Below, one piece after another: positions 5,467 to 20,716 of a stretch of DNA of 25,010 nt (its first letter is position 1; each line of letters starts with the position of its first letter). The position numbers and the translations under genes were made by a program. Origin of the DNA: a virus; IMG/VR virus record IMGVR_UViG_3300035198_000132, positions 1 to 25,010 of that record; one strand, 5' to 3'. The notes below the pieces were generated by a model. It was not told where the DNA came from, searched no databases, and was given only the letters and a program-made list of their open reading frames with translations.

Positions 5467-7029
5467 TCACGCTCCCCAGATGATGTAGTGGAATTTGGTC
5501 GTGTAGTTGACGGCGGCGGACAGGTGGAGCTTGAAGTAGGATGAGGTTATCTCCTCTATGGAGACCGCAACGGGAACGGGACTTTCCAATATCCCCATCA
5601 CTTTTATGCTTGATGGAAGCCCTGAAGGAAGGTTGACTTTGACATCCTTGACATTTGCGGGTATATCCACTGAGCCGAGATAGATTTTGCCCGTGAAGTT
5701 CTCTATGGTTTGCTCGTCTTGGTTCCAAGTTGTTGCGGAGATGATTTGACCCGATACAGCTCTCGTGAGGGAAATCTTTTGCGTTGTCGCAGTGCCCGAA
5801 ACCTCAGTGTATGTTGTCGCTTGAGGTGTCGCTTGAACCTCTTCCGATTGAGCGAGGACATTGTTTGAGCTATCCTCTGCGTAGAGCCTTGCATAGTAGG
5901 TTGTGCCATTGGTCAATCCCGTTTGGATATGGGAAGTCTTATTGACATCGGTAAATGTGAGGTTGGCGACATCGCTACCGCCCGATGATGTCCCTATCTT
6001 GAGCCGATAGTGATGGAAGTTCGCTCCGTCGTATTTTGACCAGTTATAAGTGATTTGACCCGAGCCTGGGGTTGCGGATAAAGTGAGCGAGCCCGTTCCC
6101 GAGACGCTGATAGATACTGACGAGGATGTGGCGGGAGCAAGATAACCCACTTCGCCATTGAATTTCGCCTGATAGGAAAATGAGCCAGGTTGAAGCGTCT
6201 GATAGAAGTAGGCGACGCCATTTGTATCGGTTTGAGCGGTCGCTATGAGTGAGCCATCACGCCAGAGCTCAATGGTCTTGTTTTGATATTCATTTGAATA
6301 GGTTTGCGGGTCTAACTTGACCGAGATTTGGAATTGGACGCCAGCAGAAGCGGTTGAGGGAGCGGTTAAGGTGAGCGTCGCTTGTGCCCTATACCATTTG
6401 ACCTCTATCCAATCGCTGAGGGAACATCCATATTGGCTATCCCCAGCGAATTCCACCCTAACCTGAACATCAAGGACATTGGGATAGGAAGACCACCAAA
6501 GTGAGGGCGTGATTTGGACACTTGCAATTCCATTCGTGTTAGTTTGTGCGGTAGTAGTGTAAATGGTAGTGCCGAGCACACCTGCTGGGACAACAACGAA
6601 GGTGATTGTCTTGCCCGAGAGGGGATTATTGCCTGCTTTAAGTGTCGCTGTGAGGGTAGTGGGTCCTTCAGAGGGTGGGTCATTGATGACGGGATTGGGG
6701 TTAACTGATAGCGTGAGGGTTGTTTGGGTAACTCCGCCAACGGAGACACTTATCGTTCCCGATTGGTCAAGTATGTTATTGCTAACATCGTAGTCAATAG
6801 CCTTATAGACATATGTGCCAGCTGTGGATTTAGAGGTTGAGTAGGTGCGTGGCGTAGATGAGCCGAGTGTTTGCCAAGTCTGAATAGCAGTCCAAGTATT
6901 GCCTCCATCGGTGCTCTCGTAGAGGGTTAGATGGTGATGGAAAGTTCCGCCTGATGGAGGTGAAATCGTGATTGTATAGGTCTCGTTTAGTGCTGGGTTT
7001 GTCTTATCAACGGAAATTCCCAAAGCCAT
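5467..7029 (-). CDS. Ig-like and fibronectin III repeat virion protein
   Basis: This 520-aa protein is built almost wholly of beta-sandwich modules. An FN3/Ig-like domain spans about 1-97 (SVDKTNPALNETYTITISPP). Two Ig-like bacterial-type domains follow at about 105-215 and 217-310 (LTLTAPSTASAGVQFQISVK), both with the TDTNG/TNTNG turn usual in Big_3-type repeats. An FN3 domain spans about 313-402 (TYYARLYAEDSSNNVLA), and a last domain about 405-520. The first and fourth modules share a FHHxxL motif, hinting at internal duplication. Such proteins decorate tails or fibres and bind weakly to cell-surface sugars. The start ATG overlaps the tape measure stop (TAATG) behind GGAGGTGTCTACTA. A role as tail-tip or fibre adhesin is likely but not proved. 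Confidence 0.7.
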   Translation of the reverse strand: MALGISVDKTNPALNETYTITISPPSGGTFHHHLTLYESTDGGNTWTAIQTWQTLGSSTPRTYSTSKSTAGTYVYKAIDYDVSNNILDQSGTISVSVGGVTQTTLTLSVNPNPVINDPPSEGPTTLTATLKAGNNPLSGKTITFVVVPAGVLGTTIYTTTAQTNTNGIASVQITPSLWWSSYPNVLDVQVRVEFAGDSQYGCSLSDWIEVKWYRAQATLTLTAPSTASAGVQFQISVKLDPQTYSNEYQNKTIELWRDGSLIATAQTDTNGVAYFYQTLQPGSFSYQAKFNGEVGYLAPATSSSVSISVSGTGSLTLSATPGSGQITYNWSKYDGANFHHYRLKIGTSSGGSDVANLTFTDVNKTSHIQTGLTNGTTYYARLYAEDSSNNVLAQSEEVQATPQATTYTEVSGTATTQKISLTRAVSGQIISATTWNQDEQTIENFTGKIYLGSVDIPANVKDVKVNLPSGLPSSIKVMGILESPVPVAVSIEEITSSYFKLHLSAAVNYTTKFHYIIWGA

Positions 7030-8591
7030 TAGTAGACACCTCCGTAACCGAATTCATTCTGCATCCGCTGAAGCATTTGAGCGTCAGCCCAGTCTCGGGT
7101 CATTATATCGCCCTGAACAACTACGGGAGTGGCATACTGACGAGGTGGAAGTCCCCAAATTCTCCTGCGTCTCTCTTCACTGCTTATAGCCATCAGCCCT
7201 GTTTGATACTCCGCCACCTCTTTTTGAGCCCGTGTCCAGGGTGCAAGGTAATGGCGAGTGCCGAGATAGTAGCCAAGATAAGCCGCCCCCGCTCCCAGAG
7301 CGGCAGCGCCCGCTACCATTCCAAAGCCAGTAGCGATACCTCCCAAGACGCCACCATCAGCAGCTGCGCCAGCCCCAGCTCCTGCCCCAGCTCCCGCTGC
7401 GGCGCCTCCTATTCCTAATGCTTTCATAGCTGCGCCCGTGACGGTGGAAACAATCCCCAGCGCTCTCACAGCTTCAATCAATCGCATAACCCAAATGAAA
7501 GCATTCCCCAAAGAAGCAATAACGAGGGTAATAGCTGCGATGTAAGGCGCCCATTTGGCGAGTGCCTGAGCGAGCCATTGATGTTGAGCAAAGAAGTTCC
7601 CCAGCCAGACAACCATTTTCATAACCGTGTTAGCTATGCCGAAGATGGTGTTCCCCAGCGTCTCAAGTGCTGGTCGGTTCTGGGTTATCCATCTCATTAA
7701 GTTCTCAAAGAATTGACGGAAGAGTTGCATAAATTTGATAAGGTAGGGTGCGAGAGCGAAGCCAAGCTCTTCCCAAGCCTCACGAATTTGAGACCGCATT
7801 CTTTCCCAAGCCGCCGCAATCGTGTTGGCTTGGACTTGGAGGACAGGCTGAAGCTGTGAAGTTTGCTGGAGAAGGTTCTGAATAATTCTGTTGGCTTCGT
7901 CTGCTGAGAGCTCTACCTCTTCCATTCCGCCAGCAATCATAGCTCCCATTGCTTCCCCTGTTGCCCCCGCTTTTTCCATTTCCTTCTGCTGTCTCATCAT
8001 CGCCTGCGTGGTGAGTTCCTGTATCTCCTTCACATCCACTAATCCCATAGCTGCGTGCCTCAATGCCCGCGGCCAACCCTGAAGTGCCATCATAACAGCC
8101 TCTGCCATCTCGGTAATAGGTTGACCAGTAGCGGCGGCGAGCCGAGCTGCTACTGTCAAAGCATCTCGGAGGTCTATACCAGTCCTAAATGAGATACCTG
8201 AGAGGGTTCGCATAGCTTCCTTGACATCCTCAATGTAGAAGCCATATTTCTCCGAGAATTCCTTTGCCCAGCCAATCAGCTGTTGTGCCTTTTCCCTCCC
8301 GAATAAAGTTTCAAGTGAAAGCATAAACCTTTGCTCTTCCGCCGCCATCTGTCCAGCCTTCCAAGCTACCGCCCCCATAGCTGCGCCTATCGCCATTATC
8401 CCCATCGCTATTCTGCGAGTGAGCCCTTCTAACTCGCCCCACTGAGACATCGCTTGCCTCACGGCGACGGCTTTGGCATTCATTTTGTCAAGCCCAGTGA
8501 GGAGCTGTTGGTATCCGCCCGAGACCTTGCGGATAACCCCACTGGCGAGGTCTTGTGCTGAGATGATGAGTTTTAGTTCAGTCTCAGCCAT
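7029..8591 (-). CDS. Tail tape measure protein
   Basis: This is a 520-aa mostly helical protein with alanine- and glutamine-rich amphipathic stretches and hydrophobic segments (about 60-80, 350-370 and 415-445), including a GA-rich linker (AAAGAGAGAGAGAAADGG). The N-terminus (SAQDLASGVIRKVSGGYQQL) is typical of tape measure starts, and the IEDVKEAMRTLSGISFRTGIDLRDAL region is typical of TP901-like tape measures. It sets tail length and is probably ejected with DNA. With the usual rule of about 1.5 angstroms per residue, the tail tube would be near 80 nm, which is short. It begins directly after the stop of the -1 frame chaperone product (TAA then ATG). Confidence 0.85.
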   Translation of the reverse strand: MAETELKLIISAQDLASGVIRKVSGGYQQLLTGLDKMNAKAVAVRQAMSQWGELEGLTRRIAMGIMAIGAAMGAVAWKAGQMAAEEQRFMLSLETLFGREKAQQLIGWAKEFSEKYGFYIEDVKEAMRTLSGISFRTGIDLRDALTVAARLAAATGQPITEMAEAVMMALQGWPRALRHAAMGLVDVKEIQELTTQAMMRQQKEMEKAGATGEAMGAMIAGGMEEVELSADEANRIIQNLLQQTSQLQPVLQVQANTIAAAWERMRSQIREAWEELGFALAPYLIKFMQLFRQFFENLMRWITQNRPALETLGNTIFGIANTVMKMVVWLGNFFAQHQWLAQALAKWAPYIAAITLVIASLGNAFIWVMRLIEAVRALGIVSTVTGAAMKALGIGGAAAGAGAGAGAGAAADGGVLGGIATGFGMVAGAAALGAGAAYLGYYLGTRHYLAPWTRAQKEVAEYQTGLMAISSEERRRRIWGLPPRQYATPVVVQGDIMTRDWADAQMLQRMQNEFGYGGVY

Positions 8592-9103
8592 TTAGCCCTC
8601 CATCATTTCTCTTTCCTTTTCCGCTTGGAGGACTGCAACTGCGATAACTTCCCAGAAGGCGGAGAGGGGAAGGTCTCGGAGTTCAATGGGGTGGCGGTGG
8701 AGTTTGTCAAGGCAGATGGCAACAATTCCTCCCCACCACTTCCCAGCGTCAGTTTCACGAAAAAATCCAAGAGCTCTTCCCAATTAAGAACTCCGCAGAG
8801 TTCCATTGCCTTTGCAGATAGCCGATATATGAACCCTCCGACATAGTTTGCTAGCTCAAATAGCTCCTCCTCTGTCATCTCAGGCTCAACAAGGCATAAT
8901 TTTATCCATTTCACAGCTTCAAGGAGCTTTCTTGGTATCTTTTGCCCTTTGAATACTGTAGCAGGAGGGAGCATATCAATCTGCGTCATAACCTCTGCGA
9001 GCTTGGAAGCATCTCGGGGTTCACGAAGGCGAAACTTCACGCCCTCGTATTCCAACTCGGCTTCCTTCAGCGGTTTGTTTTTGAACTTCTCAATTATGCT
9101 CAT
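8592..9103 (-). CDS. Tail assembly chaperone, long form made by -1 frameshift (gpGT-like)
   Basis: This product reads zero frame from 9103 to 8759, slips back one base at TTTTTTC, and continues in the -1 frame to a TAA at 8594-8592, giving 170 aa (115 + 55). The -1 segment runs RETDAGKWWGGIVAICLDKL, then HPIELRDLPLSAFWEVIAVA and an acidic/basic helix. It is far more protein-like than the zero-frame tail it replaces. Its stop abuts the tape measure start. Tail phages commonly make a G and a GT chaperone by this mechanism at this exact position; GT bridges tail tube protein and tape measure. The frameshift itself is inferred from sequence. Confidence 0.7.
8603..9103 (-). CDS. Tail assembly chaperone, short form (gpG-like)
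   Basis: This is the 166-aa zero-frame product. Residues 1-115 form the folded chaperone part (ELEYEGVKFRLREPRDASKL; IKLCLVEPEMTEEELFELAN; AMELCGVLNWEELLDFF). After residue 115 the sequence turns into low-complexity S/T/P text (LTNSTATPLNSETFPSPPSG), as expected of DNA whose real constraint lies in the overlapping -1 frame. The protein lies between the major tail gene and the tape measure, the standard place for this chaperone. A related second gene lies at 18593-18952. Confidence 0.75.
   Translation of the reverse strand: MSIIEKFKNKPLKEAELEYEGVKFRLREPRDASKLAEVMTQIDMLPPATVFKGQKIPRKLLEAVKWIKLCLVEPEMTEEELFELANYVGGFIYRLSAKAMELCGVLNWEELLDFFVKLTLGSGGEELLPSALTNSTATPLNSETFPSPPSGKLSQLQSSKRKRKEK
8759..8765 (-). 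promoter_or_regulatory. Slippery heptamer TTTTTTC for -1 frameshift
   Basis: On the minus strand the zero-frame codons read GAT TTT TTC GTG (codons 113-116). The T TTT TTC heptamer fits the X XXY YYZ rule, so both tRNAs can re-pair as TTT TTT after slipping back one base. Reading then continues CGT GAA ACT to the TAA in front of the tape measure. G-rich sequence (GGGAAGTGGTGGGGAGG) lies about 15 nt after the site. CCACCGCCACCCC follows further on and could pair with it to make a stimulatory stem; I have not computed that fold. Confidence 0.65.
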
Positions 9104-9109
9104 CGCTCA

Positions 9110-9502
9110 TCAGGTCTTCGTCAATGCTCCAACGCCAACGAACTCCGCGTTCTCGGTCAAGGGGTTCGCCACCCTCAGTCCGTGTGTGCGGGGGATGGCT
9201 GTGCCAGAGAGGGTGACGGTCGTCGGGGTGGTGCCAGGGAAGGTAACAGCGAACTGGATCGAGACCTCTGTTGGATTAAGGAAAAGGTCTATGAAGCCGA
9301 GCGCAGCTTCTATGAGCTTCGTGCAGGTGATAGACCAGCCTCTCTGCCCTATCTCGGGGTGTTTCCACTCATCCTGCAGAGCGGTGGTATCAATGTGGTC
9401 TACTTCAAGCCTCAGCTCGCCCTCCGTGTAAGTTGCAAGGACATCCAAAGTGCCGTATTTCCATAGCGTGATGTCCTTTGCCACAAGCCTATAGGTTGGC
9501 AT
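9110..9502 (-). CDS. Major tail (tube) protein
   Basis: This is about 130 aa and beta-rich (MPTYRLVAKDITLWKYGTLD; VTFPGTTPTTVTLSGTAIPR), located between the tail terminator and the tail chaperones. That is the expected position of the tail tube subunit in short-tailed siphoviruses. Length and strand pattern fit a minimal tube fold (GELRLEVDHIDTTALQDEW near residues 28-47 resembles the exposed loop seen in many tube proteins). The start could be the ATG at 9502 (TGATG overlap with the upstream stop) or the TTG at 9505; GGAGGTGAAAT serves either. The call rests mainly on position. Confidence 0.65.
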   Translation of the reverse strand: MPTYRLVAKDITLWKYGTLDVLATYTEGELRLEVDHIDTTALQDEWKHPEIGQRGWSITCTKLIEAALGFIDLFLNPTEVSIQFAVTFPGTTPTTVTLSGTAIPRTHGLRVANPLTENAEFVGVGALTKT

Positions 9503-9945
9503 CAAATTTCACCTCCTTCGTGATTGATACGAATGTTCACGATACCCTTCGTAAAGGAAGGGTCGGAATAGTCAGTTGCGATGTCAGTGAATTCTATCGG
9601 CTCATTCTCCACTCGCTGGTCTCGGAGGAAGTCAACGAGAGCGTCAATGTATCGCAAAAGAACGCTGTTTCGTTCCCCTTTTTGCCCTACTGGTTCCCGT
9701 AGACATACCTGAATTTGGAAAGTAGAGAGAAAAACCTGCCTTTGAGCCGAGCTCTCCGCCCCAGGTGATGAGGAGATGAGGTAAACGATACAGGCTGGCG
9801 TGATGTCCCTATCGGGTGCGAATTCCTTCTCCTTTGCGAAAAGCCTGATTGGATTGAGCCCTCGCTGGGAAAGAAGGGAATTCAGCCCCGTTGTGGGGTC
9901 AGTTATGAGGTTGTAGAGGGAATTAGTGATGGAATAGAAGCTCAC
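9502..9945 (-). CDS. Tail terminator / Mu gp37-like connector protein
   Basis: This 147-aa protein starts at GTG 9945, which overlaps the TGA of the upstream gene (GTGA). The N-terminus is helical (ITNSLYNLITDPTTGLNSLL), then strands follow (ACIVYLISSSPGAESSAQRQ; TFQIQVCLREP). The C-terminus (DYSDPSFTKGIVNIRINHEG) ends in paired strands. This alpha/beta plan and its place after the gp36-like protein match tail terminator or minor tail proteins of Mu-like heads joined to siphovirus tails. The subunit would cap the tail tube and dock to the head. Confidence 0.6.
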   Translation of the reverse strand: MSFYSITNSLYNLITDPTTGLNSLLSQRGLNPIRLFAKEKEFAPDRDITPACIVYLISSSPGAESSAQRQVFLSTFQIQVCLREPVGQKGERNSVLLRYIDALVDFLRDQRVENEPIEFTDIATDYSDPSFTKGIVNIRINHEGGEI

Positions 9946-10761: not shown

Positions 10762-10950
10762 TTATTTCCCTCCTTTTTTCTTTGGCTTCTTCTCAGCGAG
10801 GTCTATCTCTCCGCCCTCATCCTCTACCAGCTCGGCAAGCTCTCGCTTTATAAGCTCCTCCGCTTGCTCATCGGGTAGCTCTATCACATCGCCAGCGAGA
10901 TAGTTCCGTGAGCCGACCGTCAATGTGGTTTTGAGCAATACTTTCACCAT
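10762..10950 (-). CDS. gp35-like small protein, copy 3
   Basis: This 62-aa protein opens MVKVLLKTTLTVGSRNYLAG. Its core pattern (a K-V-hydrophobic strand, then AGDVIELPDEQAEELIKREL) is shared with the proteins at 11000-11179 and 12031-12234. A lysine-rich tail (AEKKPKKKGGK) follows, whose last codons form the ribosome binding site of the next gene. Such short proteins after the capsid gene are common in Mu-like heads (gp35 position) and may be minor head or folding factors. The function is not established. Confidence 0.65.
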   Translation of the reverse strand: MVKVLLKTTLTVGSRNYLAGDVIELPDEQAEELIKRELAELVEDEGGEIDLAEKKPKKKGGK

Positions 10951-12030: not shown

Positions 12031-12234
12031 TCAATCACCTTCCTTATACTTCGCTTTTCCCTTCCCTGTTGAGCTCATCGCATAGCGGGGTGGGTTGCCT
12101 GTTATTATCACTGGCTCCGCTATGCCCAGCTCCTCAAGGAAGTAGGCTAATGGCTCGGGGACTTGATAAATATCCCCTGCCTTCGCTTTCTCCTTTCCCA
12201 AGTCATATTCTTTTAGAAAGCGAACCGCTTTCAT
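12031..12234 (-). CDS. gp35-like small protein, copy 1
   Basis: This 67-aa protein starts at ATG 12234 behind GGAAAGGAGATAGAAA. It opens MKAVRFLKEYDLGKEKAKAG and continues DIYQVPEPLAYFLEELGIAE, the same plan as the two later copies (strand, A/P-GD-I-x-x-VPE, helix ending LG/LK-[IV]AE). The tail is polar (STGKGKAKYKEGD). It lies directly after the capsid gene, the position of gp35 in Mu. Its stop abuts the methylase start. Confidence 0.65.
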   Translation of the reverse strand: MKAVRFLKEYDLGKEKAKAGDIYQVPEPLAYFLEELGIAEPVIITGNPPRYAMSSTGKGKAKYKEGD

Positions 12235-14604: not shown

Positions 14605-15117
14605 CACTATCACCTCCTTTCCATTGGAGATTTTCTCGAAAAAACGAGCCACCCCCAGTCCACCAACTTTCTTGACTTGGGGGTGCGCTACTATTGCAAT
14701 AGCCCTTAAAGCCTTGCCATAGGAGGTCTTCGTCTCCTCGTCAACGAAGTCCATATAAATCTCGCAGGAAACCTTCTTCCAAGTGCCTCGTTTGATTTTC
14801 TCAAAAGCCTCTGGTTCAGTGATGACCGCATCGGCGTAGAGCTTTCCATCCTTCTCGTAGACATTTGTCACCCAGCCCACGATGGCATTAGCGTCATCCG
14901 TGTGGTTAACTTTAAGGGGAACCTCAAGCCCAACCTGATTTTTTAGGATTGCGAAATTCTCAGCGATTTTCTTGACATCTTCAGGGGTAAAGGCGGTGCC
15001 ACGATAGACGCCAGGAGCGAATACCTCCATTCCGTAGATATTGAATTGTTCTTCGCCTTCGCCAAATCTCTCAATCTTGACTTGATAGGGGTCGGTAATA
15101 AAGAATTGTTCGTTCAT
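13687..15117 (-). CDS. Prohead protease with scaffold domain (Mu gpI-like)
   Basis: This 476-aa protein has three parts. Residues 1-165 form a Mu gpI-like protease: GMEVFAPGVYRGTAFTPEDV, then VNHTDDANAIVGWV with likely catalytic H72, and TWKKVSCEIYMDF with likely nucleophile S117. Residues about 219-325 form a module frequent in phage maturation proteases (WDAQKAEISLRKWASSDGSG, the FGSYKLPHHEF strand, KGARGGVDIPAEDKQAVYNH). Residues about 345-400 are a strong coiled coil (EWQEKVKTLEEENAQLKERI and on), as in scaffold proteins, before an acidic tail. The enzyme would trim scaffold and itself inside the prohead. Its start overlaps the MuF stop (ATGA) behind GGAGGTTGATAGAAT. Confidence 0.85.
   Translation of the reverse strand: MNEQFFITDPYQVKIERFGEGEEQFNIYGMEVFAPGVYRGTAFTPEDVKKIAENFAILKNQVGLEVPLKVNHTDDANAIVGWVTNVYEKDGKLYADAVITEPEAFEKIKRGTWKKVSCEIYMDFVDEETKTSYGKALRAIAIVAHPQVKKVGGLGVARFFEKISNGKEVIVMALKEAMSSAFGWLSEHFKKLAEETEKMEIEEFGAVRHSMEYALDDSDPWDAQKAEISLRKWASSDGSGAKETIDWSKYREGFAWYDDKNPQDFGSYKLPHHEFDTKTGKFEVVWRGVVAAMAALKGARGGVDIPAEDKQAVYNHLRRHYEEFGKEAPEFSELIVSQEKGDDEEVKEWQEKVKTLEEENAQLKERIAELEKELQKKLAEEKERRVWSLVNSYIEKGKLLPAEKDAWAEYLLSLSDEELEKAIKLIEARPAHDLFEEKSKTMSPEEAEEKVNEELAERMASYVIPKKPAVLEENKK
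14604..14620 (-). promoter_or_regulatory. Internal ribosome binding site for scaffold
   Basis: The minus strand reads AAGGAGGTGATAGTG immediately before the in-frame ATG at 14604. It pairs with at least eight bases of the anti-Shine-Dalgarno sequence (TCACCTCC) and has usual spacing. Inside a coding region this is best explained as a deliberate start for a nested protein. Confidence 0.65.
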
Positions 15118-17054
15118 ATTCTATCAACCTCCTTAATCGTGAAATCCAAGCCGAGATGGATAATGTCGGAGAGAAGATAGGAAATCGTGCGGGAAGTAAT
15201 AGGATAACGCCCGCCATAGTCAATTATCATCCCTCCCCTTCTTTCACTTTTCCAAAAGATAAACTTTCCCTCTTTCCCTTCCTTTAATATCCTCTCTAAA
15301 CGAGGTAATCGCACTTTCATTTGATAATCCATTCCCTCCTTCCCAGCGATAACCTCTGCGAGAACCTTGCCCTCTTTGCCCTTGATAACGAGCTGGAGAG
15401 TTCTTTCCCCTTTGAGCTCGTCAGGGAGTTCCATAACCTCTTCCACCTCCTCTTCCTGCAAGGGAGCGAAAGTGAGACTTTGAGGGGAAGCAAAGTAAAA
15501 GCGTTCAATGAAAGGAATAACATCTTTGGGAATAGGAAATCCCTCCGCATACCTTTGAGCTGCTACAGCTGTATATTCCCACGGCGCAGTCAGAGCATAG
15601 TCGCTAATTATCGCTTCTTGTTCTATCCTTAAAACAAGCTGAACATAGAATTTACTAAACTCTTCCTTCTCTCTGTCGGTGGTAAGTAGATATTCAAATG
15701 GCGATGCCCTAAGATGCAATAGATGGTCTAATAACTCTATGAGGTCGCCTTCAGCCATCCCCCTTATCTCTTCTTTTGTATATCCCGTAAGAAAACGCAA
15801 CATTTTCTCATCCTGCTCAAGCAATATATTCCGTGCGTCATTGATTTTCTTTAAAAAGAGCTGTATCTCCTCCGCCCGATAGACTGTCTCGGGATAAATA
15901 TGCTGTAAGGAATGAGCTGTCTCGTGGAAATATAGCTCTGACTCGTTCGCTCCTCGTTGGTTAATGCAAATTAGGGGAGGTTTACCCCTCTCCGCAGGAC
16001 GGTAAAAACCTCCTGTATAGGCATCAGCTCCCCTCTCTGGGAAACGCCTGATGACCAATTCAATATCTTGGTTCTCTAATGCTTGCATTCGTGCCAGGCT
16101 CATCTGGGAAGTGACCTTTTCAAAATGGCGTTGAGCTTGTTTAACCTTCTGCTCCATTGCTCTCGGAGACATCGGCTCTCCATCCCATCTCCATTTCTCC
16201 ACCAACCTTTCAACTACCTGCGCCCTCAACGCCGAGATGGAAGGAAGGACTTTTTCAATTGCTACTTGCATAGATAATTTTCCGCCTGGAACGCCGAATC
16301 CCTTCTGAACCCAATCACCGCGAGAGGGAAGGTCTTCTGATTTCGGCACTCTCGCCAAGCTCCCCAAAAGAGGCTGGATATGACATCGGCATTGAAAGTG
16401 GAAGGGAGGAAGATAACCAGCTTCAAGCGTCGCTACATCCAATACTTTCCCGTCCAGCTCCCTACAATGCTCACAGACAAAGGGGTCAAGCGCTGCCACA
16501 ATGCGAACCTTCTCCACTCCCGCCTCAACGGCGCCGACCCAATGCCCGAGAGAGTAAGCGAAATTGATTTCCGTTGAGGCGATATTCCTTGCCCTCGCCA
16601 TTGCCAGCCCAACCTTTTCGTGGATATTTTTCGCTATGTCATTGGGATTGAGCCCTTCCTTTATTCCGTCCATCACCAACTCTTTGATTTTCGCCTTCGT
16701 TGTGTTTTCCTCTATCTTCACTTTCTCAGCTGCCAGCGCCTTGATGACCGCTGTGAGTTCGGGAGACCAGGGGTATCCTTTCTCTTGCAATTGATAGGGA
16801 AGCATAAGCCGTTGAACCCTCGCATATCCCCTTTGGAAAGCCTCCAGCATTGCATCCGCTAAATTCTGCTTCCAAATCTCTCGCAATCCTTTCCACACCA
16901 TCCTCACAATGCTCTCAACAGGTTGCCCCTCCGCTATCATCTGCTCTATATGTCCACTGCGGACGAGGGAATATTGGAGATAACGGGTCAATAAAGCCTC
17001 CTCCATCCTGTCCAGCTCTGCCTTCGTTCGCTGAAGCTCCTGCGGGGTAATCAT
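15114..17054 (-). CDS. Mu gpF-like head protein with C-terminal HExxH metalloprotease-like domain
   Basis: This 646-aa protein has, at its N-terminus, the minor head protein fold of the Mu gpF/SPP1 gp7 type (to about residue 235). ASTEINFAYSLGHW is followed by ALDPFVCEHCRELDGKVLDV and FHFQCRCHIQP, the usual CxxC and HxxCRC signature. A basic helical linker follows. The C-terminal part holds ELYFHETAHSLQHIYPE (H377, E378, H381) and, about 110 residues on, SDYALTAPWEYTAVAAQRYA with E493 as a possible third zinc ligand, the plan of gluzincin-type proteases. The last 130 residues are strand- and lysine-rich. Its start overlaps the portal stop (ATGA). The protein probably enters the capsid with the portal; whether the zincin acts in maturation or after injection is unknown. 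Confidence 0.8.
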   Translation of the reverse strand: MITPQELQRTKAELDRMEEALLTRYLQYSLVRSGHIEQMIAEGQPVESIVRMVWKGLREIWKQNLADAMLEAFQRGYARVQRLMLPYQLQEKGYPWSPELTAVIKALAAEKVKIEENTTKAKIKELVMDGIKEGLNPNDIAKNIHEKVGLAMARARNIASTEINFAYSLGHWVGAVEAGVEKVRIVAALDPFVCEHCRELDGKVLDVATLEAGYLPPFHFQCRCHIQPLLGSLARVPKSEDLPSRGDWVQKGFGVPGGKLSMQVAIEKVLPSISALRAQVVERLVEKWRWDGEPMSPRAMEQKVKQAQRHFEKVTSQMSLARMQALENQDIELVIRRFPERGADAYTGGFYRPAERGKPPLICINQRGANESELYFHETAHSLQHIYPETVYRAEEIQLFLKKINDARNILLEQDEKMLRFLTGYTKEEIRGMAEGDLIELLDHLLHLRASPFEYLLTTDREKEEFSKFYVQLVLRIEQEAIISDYALTAPWEYTAVAAQRYAEGFPIPKDVIPFIERFYFASPQSLTFAPLQEEEVEEVMELPDELKGERTLQLVIKGKEGKVLAEVIAGKEGMDYQMKVRLPRLERILKEGKEGKFIFWKSERRGGMIIDYGGRYPITSRTISYLLSDIIHLGLDFTIKEVDRI

Positions 17055-18340
17055 CTCGCCCTCCCTTCAGGTGGCACTTCCTCCACCTCTGGCGGATAGG
17101 TTTCCTCAGTGGCTGGTGGGGTTACCTTTGGCATCGGCGTAGAGGTCGGCGTCGGTGGAGAATAAGGCGGTAGATGGAGAGCTTGGCGAAGGATATTCTC
17201 GTCATCAGTCGTCCAATGCATTGCCCCAACGCTGTATAGTCGGAAAACGGCGTCTATGATTGGCTGGGGTTCAATCGGTTCGTCAAAGACTACCTCGCCC
17301 CAGTCATCTAATTGCCCGAAATTCAATGATATAAGTCGCCTAAACAATTGCTCTTCTAAAACTGCCTTCAATTCCCTAATGATACCGCCCAACATCTTTT
17401 GAAAGACTTCTTGGTGGACAGTCGCCTGAGCTCTCGTCCCGTATTGAGCCTCTGAAACGAGAAGGGAAGGAATGAGAAGAGCTCGCAAAATGAGGACATC
17501 CTGATAGCGAATAGCATTCTCATAAAAATCGCCACGCCCCTCAATTTCTTGGAATTTGATATCAGCTCCACCCGAGTAAACGAGAGAGTTGCGATTGTGT
17601 AAATCCTCAAGGATATGCCTCATCGCCTCAATGTATCTTTCCTCCCGCTGATGGATAGGACACCAAACATCCACTTCCGCTTGCGGGAGGGAGGCGATAG
17701 TAAGGGGAGTGGCAAGTCGTTCAAGATGGATATTCCAGCGTTGCTGTAGGAAGATTTTCGTCATCCAGGGGACATATGCGGGTCGGAGGAGGGAATTCCC
17801 GTAGGGATTTCCAAAATCAGATTGGAACGACCAAAGGATAAGTCGTTCAAGGGGAAGGTCTATCGCTTCCGTTCCAACTCGCTGTTTGATTTTTTGAATG
17901 TTTCCAAACTCATCTACCTCAATCCCGCCATAGACACTTATTGGATTGATAGCTTTCACCTTTTTAATCCCGATTTTTCCCTCTTCCTTTAGGGGTTTAT
18001 AGACAATTTCTGCTACCGAGAAGCCTGCCCAGAGAGCTGAAAGTAAATCCTGCACTACATCCTGAAGGGTTCCTTGCATCGCCTCTAAAACATTCTCAAC
18101 GAAGAGCTGAACCTCTGGATATGTCTCATTTTTGTATCCAACGAGACGAGATAAAATGGTGTTGCGAATGAATTCAACCCCTGCCCTTACCGTCGGGTCG
18201 GAACGATACATAGCCCAATAGACCCAAATGTTTACTTCCTCAGCGAAAAGATAAGGGTATCCTGCCCCCAATGGGTAGAGTGCCCCCATTGGGTAGTATG
18301 ACCAAATTCCAAGCGGTGCATATTGACTTATTTCTTTCAT
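17051..18340 (-). CDS. Portal protein, Mu gp29-like (DUF935)
   Basis: This 429-aa protein would form the dodecameric DNA channel of the capsid vertex. Typical DUF935 text includes WAMYRSDPTVRAGVEFIRNT, LLSALWAGFSVAEIVYKPL, ERLILWSFQSDFGNPYGNSL, LRPAYVPWMTKIFLQQRWNI and SLLVSEAQYGTRAQATVHQE. The C-terminus is a proline-rich tail (PPYSPPTPTSTPMPKVTPPA). The start ATG at 18340 is close behind GGGGG, a weak site for this operon, and just downstream of a terminator-like hairpin. The MuF gene overlaps its end. Confidence 0.85.
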   Translation of the reverse strand: MKEISQYAPLGIWSYYPMGALYPLGAGYPYLFAEEVNIWVYWAMYRSDPTVRAGVEFIRNTILSRLVGYKNETYPEVQLFVENVLEAMQGTLQDVVQDLLSALWAGFSVAEIVYKPLKEEGKIGIKKVKAINPISVYGGIEVDEFGNIQKIKQRVGTEAIDLPLERLILWSFQSDFGNPYGNSLLRPAYVPWMTKIFLQQRWNIHLERLATPLTIASLPQAEVDVWCPIHQREERYIEAMRHILEDLHNRNSLVYSGGADIKFQEIEGRGDFYENAIRYQDVLILRALLIPSLLVSEAQYGTRAQATVHQEVFQKMLGGIIRELKAVLEEQLFRRLISLNFGQLDDWGEVVFDEPIEPQPIIDAVFRLYSVGAMHWTTDDENILRQALHLPPYSPPTPTSTPMPKVTPPATEETYPPEVEEVPPEGRAR

Positions 18341-18344
18341 ATAA

Positions 18345-18388
18345 CCCCCAAAAGAAAAGAGCGGGAGACCTTTCGGTCTCCCGCTCTT
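18345..18388 (-). terminator. Rho-independent-type terminator before portal gene
   Basis: AAGAGCGGGAGACC (18357-18370) and GGTCTCCCGCTCTT (18375-18388) are a perfect 14-bp inverted repeat. On the minus strand the loop is GAAA, and the stem is followed by TTTCTTTT before GGGGG. That is a classical intrinsic terminator for minus-strand transcription. The plus strand lacks a matching T-run after the stem. It lies between the 59-aa gene and the portal start, so late transcription must read through, be antiterminated, or restart here. Confidence 0.75.
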
Positions 18389-18420
18389 CGGGTCAACCTC
18401 AAATTACATTATAACGCTTT

Positions 18421-18600
18421 TTATCTGTTTGTCAAGTTTTCCCTCAACCTCATCTGATAGGCAATAGCTTCCCCATCCTGAACGATTATTTCTATTGAGC
18501 CATAATAAAGACAGCGATTTTCCACAAACCAGCGAACCAAAAGTCTTATCAGCTCCTTCAGCTCCTCTGGCGCTTCCGCAAGCTCAAGAACCTTATTCAC
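18421..18600 (-). CDS. 59-aa unknown late protein
   Basis: A GTG at 18600 behind GGAGGTGAAAA opens a frame that ends in TAA at 18421. The protein starts NKVLELAEAPEELKELIRLL after the initiator, continues VRWFVENRCLYYGSIEIIVQ and ends in a basic tail (MRLRENLTNR). The plan is helix then two strands. The start overlaps the chaperone-like gene upstream in a different (+1) frame. The strong ribosome binding site shows it is a separate gene and not a frameshift extension. No family recognised. Confidence 0.6.
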   Translation of the reverse strand: MNKVLELAEAPEELKELIRLLVRWFVENRCLYYGSIEIIVQDGEAIAYQMRLRENLTNR

Positions 18601-18952
18601 TTTTCACCTCCATCCTTCCAACCTCTTCCTCTTCTAACATTCCGCAGAGCTCCAATGTCTTTTCCAAAAGGACGAAAATCAAAGCACCACTTTGCAGGGA
18701 CATCTCCACGAGCTCCTGAAACGACATCTTCGGCTCAACGAGAGAAGCCTCAACCCACACACAGGCAATAGCAAGGTCGGAGGGAATATCTATCACCTCA
18801 CCATTTGAGAGCTTGAAATTCTCCAAGCCCATAGAGTAAAGGCGGGTTTTCGCAAACAACCTCGCTATGTCAACCGCACTCCTTATCTCCCTCAACCTGA
18901 ACCTCTTGCCCTCATAAATGACCTCTGCTTCTTTTGTCTCTATGTTAGTCAT
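18593..18952 (-). CDS. Second tail-assembly-chaperone homologue
   Basis: This 119-aa protein is clearly related to the tail chaperone at 8603-9103. AEVIYEGKRFRLREIRSAVD matches AELEYEGVKFRLREPRDASK, VEASLVEPKMSFQELVEM matches IKLCLVEPEMTEEELFEL, and KTLELCGMLEEEE matches KAMELCGVLNWEE. It stops where the other copy reaches its slippery site, and no TTTTTTC or open -1 frame follows. It sits between the terminase and portal genes, far from the tail block. The start has AGAGGTGAAAA. A duplicated short-form chaperone, a regulator of it, or a gene from another phage's tail module are possible. Confidence 0.75.
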   Translation of the reverse strand: MTNIETKEAEVIYEGKRFRLREIRSAVDIARLFAKTRLYSMGLENFKLSNGEVIDIPSDLAIACVWVEASLVEPKMSFQELVEMSLQSGALIFVLLEKTLELCGMLEEEEVGRMEVKSE

Positions 18953-18967
18953 TTTTCACCTCTGCCT

Positions 18968-19084
18968 TTAATCCCAATAATCCCAGAAATTCTTATAAAA
19001 GCGATAAAACCAAATCGCAAATACCAAAAACCAAAAAATAACTCCGCAGCTTGCCCCTATCAGAAAACAATCAAGTTCACTCAT
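18968..19084 (-). CDS. 38-aa single-span membrane peptide
   Basis: ATG at 19084 overlaps the upstream stop (ATGA) behind GGAGGTGACAA. The peptide is MSELDCFLIGASCGVIFWFL followed by VFAIWFYRFYKNFWDYWD. Most of residues 6-30 is hydrophobic and would span the membrane once, leaving an aromatic, partly charged tail. It is too short for most ORF finders but the start site is excellent. Function unknown; membrane peptides of this size in late operons are sometimes lysis or exclusion factors, which is only a possibility here. Confidence 0.6.
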   Translation of the reverse strand: MSELDCFLIGASCGVIFWFLVFAIWFYRFYKNFWDYWD

Positions 19085-19341
19085 TTGTCACCTCCTACAT
19101 AGTAAAGCCCTCCATTGTTAACGAAGTTCTCATCTAACAGCTTGAGGAAATCCCCGAAACTCTTCAACCCAATCTTCCCGAGATGCCCGATATCCACTCC
19201 CGTAAGTAGACACCAGCCCATAAACTTGCTCCACAACCAGCGCCCCTCTCGTTCTCGGCTCTCTGGAGGAAGCCCTTGCAAGGTCTCCTTTGCCCATTTC
19301 ACCACATCAGCGAGGTCTATCTTCCGCTGGGATATGCTCAT
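19081..19341 (-). CDS. Small unknown protein downstream of terminase
   Basis: This 86-aa protein starts at ATG 19341, overlapping the terminase stop by four bases. The N-terminus is helical and basic (MSISQRKIDLADVVKWAKET), then comes a tryptophan-rich segment (GRWLWSKFMGWCLLTGVDIG) and a helix (KSFGDFLKLLDENFVNNGG). I see no HTH or metal motif. Coupling to the terminase suggests a packaging accessory or small head protein, but nothing in the sequence proves it. Confidence 0.6.
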   Translation of the reverse strand: MSISQRKIDLADVVKWAKETLQGLPPESREREGRWLWSKFMGWCLLTGVDIGHLGKIGLKSFGDFLKLLDENFVNNGGLYYVGGDK

Positions 19342-20627
19342 TTTATCACATCCCCAAATATGCTCTTCCCTCCCGCCACCTCAAACTTCACTCCCATCCT
19401 CAATCCCGCACAAGCCAATGCCAACGCCCAAGCTGCGTCATCGTGTCCCTTCGCTGAATAACTCTCCCGCTCTATTGAATGTAGCTGTAAAATCAACTCC
19501 TGATGTCTCGGTATCTTCAGCTCCCCTTTCTCAAACAGGCTCTTTAAGTTCGTCATCAAGCTCTCCTTGACCGCTCTTGTGAAATTCACGCCCTCTATGA
19601 GATTGCCCCAGCGTCTCTTCAACTCCTCCGCTAATGGCATACCCATTCCCGTCGCATCCACATAGACCTTTATCGGCTTATAGACCTTGATGTAATCCTC
19701 CACTTTCTTGAATGTCTCGTTGAACGGTATCTTAAAGAGGATGTCCAACTTATGGAGGAATGAGAAACCTTGAAATGGCTGGAAGACTATCGCTATCGCT
19801 GTGGCATCCCTCGTCCGCCCTATATCCGCACCGATATGGAAGTAGCCGTTTTTCGTTCCCGCTACAACGGGAGGGAACTCGTCTGTGATGACATTGAGGA
19901 GGTCGTCATAGGTAAAGAATGCACCAACATCGGAGAGGAAAGAGCATTCATATTCCTGTTGAAAGCCCTCTATCGTGGGGAATGAAGCGAATATCTCCTT
20001 CAAGGCTTGCGTCCCAAACTTCTCCACCCGCTCCTCCGTCGTCATATTCTCCGCTTCCTGCATTGCCCTCACGAGGTCGGTAGTGAATACGGGACAATGC
20101 CACCAGGGAACTCTGAACCGCTTATACTGGGGATACTTCTCTTTGTTTGTGTAAATCTCATAGAATAGCCCTCTCGCTCCCAGTGGCGTTGAGGCGATAT
20201 GCACTTCATAACCCCGTGAGGCGAGAGGAAGAGCAGCTATGAATATCTCCTCATCCTCACGGAAATGGGCGAACTCATCAAGGAAGAGATGACCAGATTT
20301 GCCTCTCAACCCAGATGAGCAAGGGAGGGAAAGAAGCCGTGAACCATTGGAAAATGCTATCTCTTGAAGGCTATCACGCACGAGGCGAATTTTCTTTCTT
20401 ATCTCCTTTGGCTGGGAATGATAGAGGAGGCGAGCATATCGGATTTTCTCCTCCGCATCCCGCTGGTTAAGGGAAAGATAGAGGGCTGAATAGCCTGGCT
20501 CGGAAAGGGCACGCTTCAGCCCCCGCCAGGCGAAGGCAAAGGAAAACCCCACCTGCCGAGCTTTCACTGTGATGGTAAATCGGCTTTTCTCCTGCAGGAA
20601 GGCGAACTGATATGGGTAGATTTCCAT
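19338..20627 (-). CDS. Terminase large subunit (gp28-like packaging ATPase/nuclease)
   Basis: This is a 429-aa motor from ATG 20627; a TTG at 20660 would add 11 residues but neither start has a good ribosome binding site. The ATPase part shows a Walker-A-like KARQVGFS (residues 22-29), Walker B HLFLDEFAHF with D117 and E118, and the coupling motif HIASTPLG. The nuclease part has GADIGRTRDA (D268), VYVDATGMG (D324) and KGHDDAAWALALA (D396/D397), the acidic set of an RNase-H-type nuclease. It cuts concatemeric DNA and pumps it through the portal. It is the first gene after the integrase palindrome, with a possible promoter immediately upstream. Confidence 0.9.
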   Translation of the reverse strand: MEIYPYQFAFLQEKSRFTITVKARQVGFSFAFAWRGLKRALSEPGYSALYLSLNQRDAEEKIRYARLLYHSQPKEIRKKIRLVRDSLQEIAFSNGSRLLSLPCSSGLRGKSGHLFLDEFAHFREDEEIFIAALPLASRGYEVHIASTPLGARGLFYEIYTNKEKYPQYKRFRVPWWHCPVFTTDLVRAMQEAENMTTEERVEKFGTQALKEIFASFPTIEGFQQEYECSFLSDVGAFFTYDDLLNVITDEFPPVVAGTKNGYFHIGADIGRTRDATAIAIVFQPFQGFSFLHKLDILFKIPFNETFKKVEDYIKVYKPIKVYVDATGMGMPLAEELKRRWGNLIEGVNFTRAVKESLMTNLKSLFEKGELKIPRHQELILQLHSIERESYSAKGHDDAAWALALACAGLRMGVKFEVAGGKSIFGDVIK

Positions 20628-20636
20628 ATCAGTTCT

Positions 20637-20664
20637 ATTATACGGTTTTAGGAAAATCAATCAA
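20637..20664 (-). promoter_or_regulatory. Possible sigma70-type promoter for late operon
   Basis: The minus strand carries TTGATT (20664-20659), a 16-nt spacer, then TATAAT (20642-20637). The ATG at 20627 is only nine bases after the -10 box, so a transcript from here would be leaderless or nearly so. This would fit the missing ribosome binding site of the terminase gene. The -35 match is imperfect. Confidence 0.4.
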
Positions 20665-20672
20665 GCAAGAAT

Positions 20673-20716
20673 TTGGAATTTAGACATAACATTATAATGT
20701 TATGTCTAAATTCCAA
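20673..20716. repeat. Perfect 44-bp palindrome at integrase 3' end
   Basis: The left arm TTGGAATTTAGACATAACAT plus TA, and the right arm TA plus ATGTTATGTCTAAATTCCAA, are exact complements over 22 bp with no spacer. The stop codon of the integrase (20706-20708) and its last codons lie inside it. It is AT-rich, and only TTCTTGCTTG follows on the minus strand, so a terminator is possible but not classic. A recombination site or dimeric protein-binding site is the main alternative. Confidence 0.9.

Follow-up and report, generated by a model that had tools for sequence, protein, structure and literature searches.

Why would a phage encode a second homologue of its tail assembly chaperone beside its terminase? 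The question is raised by ORF A (18593..18952, minus strand), an open reading frame of 119 aa with an ATG start and a good Shine-Dalgarno sequence, that lies between the genes of the large terminase (TerL; 19338..20660, minus strand) and the portal (17051..18340, minus strand). The window, meaning the whole stretch of DNA that was analysed, comprises positions 1 to 25,010 of IMG/VR record IMGVR_UViG_3300035198_000132 and is also referred to here as the 25-kb record. It includes the phage's own chaperone, ORF B (8603..9103, minus strand; G part plus zero-frame tail), next to the gene of a 520-aa tape measure protein (7029..8591, minus strand) and that of a protein which, by position, is the probable tail tube protein (9110..9505, minus strand).

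Fold of ORF A and kinship with the phage's own chaperone

Local alignment of ORF A with ORF B gave a score of 163, compared to a mean of 30.3 (sd 5.4) and a maximum of 68 in 2000 shuffles, which rules out chance similarity between the two. Inside the record, ORF A matches ORF B with an E-value of 2.6e-16 and 39% identity over residues 4-111, or nearly all of ORF A, and the three motif blocks that the first-pass annotation had named are all present. The AlphaFold model of ORF A has a pLDDT of 85.6 and that of ORF B, which is confident over the first 110 residues, a pLDDT of 69.2. The top four solved structures are identical for the two models: YqbN (3klu; Z scores of 8.1 for ORF A and 7.7 for ORF B), the HK97 tail assembly chaperone (2ob9; 7.5 and 6.4), 3fgx (6.3 and 5.8), and 5ir0 (4.6 and 4.6). 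Below these four matches there is a gap, with the next row for ORF A at a Z score of 2.4. Foldseek alone found no PDB match under E 0.001 for the ORF A model; the fold was settled by a VIA second look and by matches to viral structures (BFVD), many of which are named tail assembly chaperone. The proposal of the first-pass annotation, that a second tail-chaperone homologue lies between terminase and portal, is borne out by the shuffle test, by the match inside the record, and by a fold that is common to the two proteins rather than unrelated. The fold predicted for ORF A is that of gpG of lambda and of TP901-1, of the HK97 protein, and of YqbN. In those systems, a single gene of the tail operon yields both G and a frameshifted GT, whereas ORF A is a lone G that has no T partner.

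Searches of Pfam, NCBIfam, PHROG, PADLOC, and PDB sequences gave no match for ORF A, and searches of Pfam, NCBIfam, PHROG, and PDB sequences returned nothing at a meaningful E-value for ORF B. Further, tblastn against 50,697 phage records gave no match for either. Pattern scans of viral contigs, based on ORF A, ORF B, the tape measure, and alignments of A/B and of the A lineage, found no relatives; the pair of ORF A and ORF B was therefore not seen in a second phage, and ORF A is found in one phage record only. Judged from sequence and predicted structure, ORF A is a second tail assembly chaperone homologue in this phage. It has the G-domain fold and is homologous to a chaperone whose gene has the usual position between tube and tape measure; it differs from a tail chaperone in having no frameshift with T extension and in its gene place, which is between TerL and portal and not between tube and tape measure.

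Chromosomal lineage of ORF A

A profile of ORF A and ORF B first found a bacterial contig (L008); two further genomes were then found among 291 of its phylum. The chaperones of these three genomes (G212, L017:10382-10774; G213, L016:1270-1650; G006, L008:9965-10354) share the G domain of ORF A. In all three, the gene follows that of the tube, precedes that of a putative mini tape measure, and combines a slip site, TTTTTTC (or T7C), with a T domain in the -1 frame, whereas both features are missing from ORF A beside TerL. The same arrangement is seen in ORF B, where a TTTTTTC -1 slip site (8759..8765, minus strand) leads into a -1 frame T domain (8592..8759, minus strand) that is conserved in the three chromosomal relatives; the motif IV..CL...RHP.E...WE is common to all four. 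ORF A is 80, 70, and 63% identical to the G212, G213, and G006 chaperones, respectively, over all aligned columns (88, 75, and 68% over the core), versus about 40% to ORF B. In the tree, ORF A and the G212 chaperone are grouped with 100% bootstrap, making them sisters, and a root that places ORF A outside the three chromosomal chaperones is only marginally disfavoured (AU p 0.0545). Identity and tree reject ORF A as a local duplicate of ORF B. The term duplication used in the first-pass annotation is thus inexact: the nearest kin of ORF A are chaperones of the G212 type (80-88%). These comparisons place ORF A within the chaperone lineage of a GTA-like element from bacteria.

Ungapped DNA identity of 81% to the G212 chaperone gene spans 18622..18941 (minus strand), its limit lying 2 nt short of that gene's slip run. 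T run, slippery run, and T domain are all absent from ORF A, which therefore corresponds to the G domain only and is a homologue of this domain rather than a complete chaperone gene. The earlier observation that ORF A lacks both the frameshift and the extension, with slip site and T domain present in ORF B, stands. The remaining domain has been under constraint. Between ORF A and the G212 chaperone, dN is 0.15 and dS is 1.20, and the branch of ORF A carries 5 polarised amino-acid changes versus 25.4 +/- 2.7 expected without selection, when third-position changes on that branch are matched by unselected changes and polarised with the other two genomes. Of 68 core positions that are invariant in the three chromosomal chaperones, ORF A keeps 63. 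Part of this constraint may be older than the loss of the T domain.

Among the 291 genomes of the phylum, the chaperone together with a close capsid gene occurs only in G212, G213, and G006. Each of these has three separate sets of phage-derived genes (contigs L008, L016, L017, L018, L020, L021, and L025-L027). One set encodes a terminator, the tube, G/GT, a protein of 167-197 aa, a fibre, an amidase, small holin-like proteins, and TerL, along with a sigma-70 region-4-like regulator in L008 and L017. A second set is a lone portal, and a third includes protease/scaffold, decoration, capsid, and connector genes. In G212, about 136 kb of a single contig separate the portal from the head set, and the tail set lies on a different contig. 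A DUF6785 gene flanks TerL and a DUF2092 gene flanks the portal in all three genomes, while Wzc-like or Fur genes adjoin the head cluster. The divergence of the flanking genes is about equal to that of the phage-type genes, for which dN is well below dS, and no integration or replication genes were seen in those parts of the cluster surroundings that were read. The genes occupy several loci, of which some consist of one gene, and appear to be inherited vertically, with conserved host genes at their flanks. Gene transfer agents (GTAs) are known to be scattered in this way: the phage-origin structural genes of the Rhodobacter and Caulobacter GTAs likewise lie at several places in the chromosome, including single-gene ones (PMC11841831). 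By its gene pattern, the chromosomal element resembles a GTA and is here termed a putative one; it differs from the Rhodobacter and Caulobacter GTAs in belonging to another phylum. A literature search found no GTA for Armatimonadota or Fervidibacter, where Armatimonadota as the host phylum is a guess from protein style.

Two further features of the chromosomal clusters were observed. At the tape-measure place, each has a basic protein of 167-197 aa (L017:10871-11386, L016:1750-2253, L008:10457-11050) with no family match; such a protein alone at this place would imply a very short tail. In the gap between capsid and connector, the head clusters carry several tandem relatives (L025:9892-10351, L027:8972-9445, L026:8559-9065) of the small phage proteins at 12031-12234 and 10762-10950.

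Comparison of the phage with the G212 element reveals a mosaic. Identity is 92.9% for TerL, 85% for the capsid, 81% for the fibre, 82% for the amidase, and 88.6% for the connector, which is higher than between G212 and its sister genomes where such pairs were compared. The three chromosomal versions of portal, tube, and chaperone are 71-82% alike among themselves, and their phage counterparts stand well apart: the phage portal is 60-65% identical to chromosomal portals (themselves 80-82% alike), the probable tube protein 32-35% to chromosomal ones (themselves 77-80% alike), and ORF B 39-43% to the chromosomal chaperones. No GTA-type counterpart of the phage tape measure was found. ORF A is therefore the sole proximal-tail gene of GTA type in the 25-kb record and, since portal, tube, ORF B, and probably the tape measure are not of this type, it has no GTA-type client there. 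The sharing of genes suggests that G212-like bacteria are probably hosts of the phage.

The slot between terminase and portal

TerL, an 86-aa gene (19081..19341, minus strand), a gene of roughly 60 aa, and the portal are conserved in two relatives of the phage, L003 and L004, with 93% DNA identity for the 86-aa gene in both. In the window, the roughly 60-aa gene encodes 59 aa (18421..18600, minus strand) and overlaps the end of ORF A. Between these two small genes lies a slot that is bordered by GGAGGTGA(A/C)AARTGA repeats, which are Shine-Dalgarno/start sequences. The upstream border, GGAGGTGACAAATGA (19081..19095, minus strand), is a Shine-Dalgarno-type repeat, and the downstream border, GGAGGTGAAAAGTGA (18597..18611, minus strand), is the Shine-Dalgarno sequence and start of the 59-aa gene, within which the 3' end of ORF A falls. 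What the slot holds differs from phage to phage. In the window, it contains a 38-aa single-TM ORF (18968..19084, minus strand), which is the first cassette gene and is ATGA-coupled to the preceding 86-aa gene, and ORF A. In L003 it contains nothing, and in L004, a close relative, it contains about 3 kb (L004:671-3729) that encode Cas11, Csf2, Csf3, a CysH-like PAPS reductase, and Csf1. These are a type IV CRISPR-Cas set, an inter-element conflict system. A pattern scan for the slot flanks found only L003 and L004 plus two chance matches. Given that the slot is empty in L003 and filled with other cargo in L004, ORF A is accessory cargo. A variable cargo slot makes an essential role in the phage's own head gate or tail unlikely.

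Several other features of this region were noted. A perfect TTGACA-16-TATAAT promoter with a strong terminator hairpin directly after it (18356-18435, minus strand) stands just before the portal, an arrangement that is kept in L003 and L004, the stem sequence of L004 being different but its pairing retained; this is possibly a late promoter under antitermination control. A 44-base perfect palindrome (20673-20716) lies between a serine recombinase gene and TerL, beside a promoter-like site: could it be an operator or a recombination site? Additionally, a MuF-like head protein has a variable C-terminus, comprising 646 aa with HETAH in the window (15114-17054, minus strand), 267 aa without the extension in L003 (L003:3368-4171), and 654 aa with HEYAH in L004 (L004:5276-7240), and the C-terminus is perhaps an exchangeable metallopeptidase cargo domain.

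Possible roles of a lone G domain

The reading that we favour, with a probability of roughly 40%, is that ORF A acts in trans on the tape measure or GT of GTA type and disturbs tail assembly of that element. In tail assembly, G binds the tape measure and forms a coat on it, the tube protein is recruited by T, and a defined ratio of G to GT is critical (PMC4493119). Blockers of tail assembly are encoded by phages and satellites, as exemplified by Tab (PMC10884400), Tai (PMC11364771), and Rta of the satellite PLE (PMC12987554). ORF A would have been taken from the tail module of the GTA-like element and carried as cargo between TerL and portal. Its product would still oligomerise and would bind the tape measure or GT of the GTA lineage, not that of the phage. 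Lacking the tube-recruiting T domain, it could form an unproductive coat on the GTA tape measure and shift the G:GT ratio, such that tails of the GTA or of a related element fail. The parts common to both, namely capsid, terminase, and distal tail (81-93%), would then become available for phage particles. Since known systems already make G in excess over GT, more G may be harmless, which counts against such poisoning. That ORF A is specifically a phage-encoded anti-GTA factor, a dominant-negative G-only inhibitor whose action frees the shared parts for the phage, is a tentative extension that we regard as doubtful. Of the roles offered in the first-pass annotation, blocking of tail assembly stays viable, the most natural target being the tail of another element and not the phage's own.

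The closest functional parallels to such a role were likewise considered, and both a stand-alone satellite chaperone and a terminase-side tail blocker are already known. The latter, Tab of phage JBD26, is encoded among terminase genes and blocks tails at the tape-measure step (PMC10884400). ORF A is like Tab an accessory gene among terminase genes, a likeness of position and an analogy only; Tab, encoded on the minus strand, has a promoter of its own and an anti-Tab partner, whereas ORF A is co-oriented with TerL. On the question of a Tab- or Tai-type inhibitor, no PADLOC model matched ORF A.

Rather improbable, in our view, is that ORF A came in recently as a passenger, a fragment picked up through recombination with the chromosomal element, along with TerL and the distal tail genes, and has no selected function. 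Gene exchange between the phage and the G212 element is clear, the slot is variable among relatives, the C-terminus of ORF A is built from the Shine-Dalgarno sequence of its neighbour, and the gene occurs in a single record, all of which speaks for a passenger. However, the ORF is intact and has its own ribosome site, the synonymous divergence from G212 of about 1.2 implies that the split is not recent, the invariant core positions are retained at 63 of 68, and the cut coincides with a domain border directly upstream of the slip site, so that the G fold remains complete.

A positive role is suggested by the other known system and seems to us improbable. The structure 5IR0, among the top matches of ORF A (Z 4.6), comes from the Vibrio satellite PLE1, whose chaperone is a stand-alone and satellite-encoded protein (PMC12987554) that, as proposed for ORF A, works in a cell where the tail of another element is built. 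ORF A could similarly supply G for tails with GTA-type parts or for chimeric particles, such as the chimeric tails that PLE builds (PMC12987554) by pairing the chaperone with its own tape measure, and mixed particles are plausible given fibre, amidase, major capsid protein (MCP), and TerL that are 81-93% identical. Unlike PLE, however, the phage has a full tail set with its own tape measure and a complete B/T chaperone, and a GTA-type tape measure is absent from the 25-kb record. Moreover, ORF A without T could not recruit tube alone, and L003 does without ORF A at the slot.

Finally, it is conceivable from the shared fold and about 40% identity that ORF A forms mixed oligomers with ORF B and so modulates or helps tail assembly of the phage itself, with TerL-side genes possibly co-expressed with late genes, but this is the reading we consider least probable, as ORF A tracks the chromosomal chaperones and not ORF B, the phage tube and ORF B share no more than 32-43% identity with their chromosomal counterparts and no GTA-type equivalent of the tape measure was found, and ORF A is cargo that is absent at the slot in both L003 and L004.

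If ORF A does act in trans on GTA-type tails, one half of a frameshift chaperone would have been turned against, or to the use of, a GTA, and phage and GTA would be in direct conflict at the tail-assembly step, in parallel to Tab, Tai, and PLE. Should the anti-GTA reading hold, ORF A would possibly be the first phage-encoded anti-GTA factor. A further outcome of the analysis is a putative GTA-like element, split over loci and apparently vertically inherited, with which the phage swaps capsid, terminase, and fibre genes, and, as a natural G-only variant, ORF A makes the G:GT ratio rule testable.
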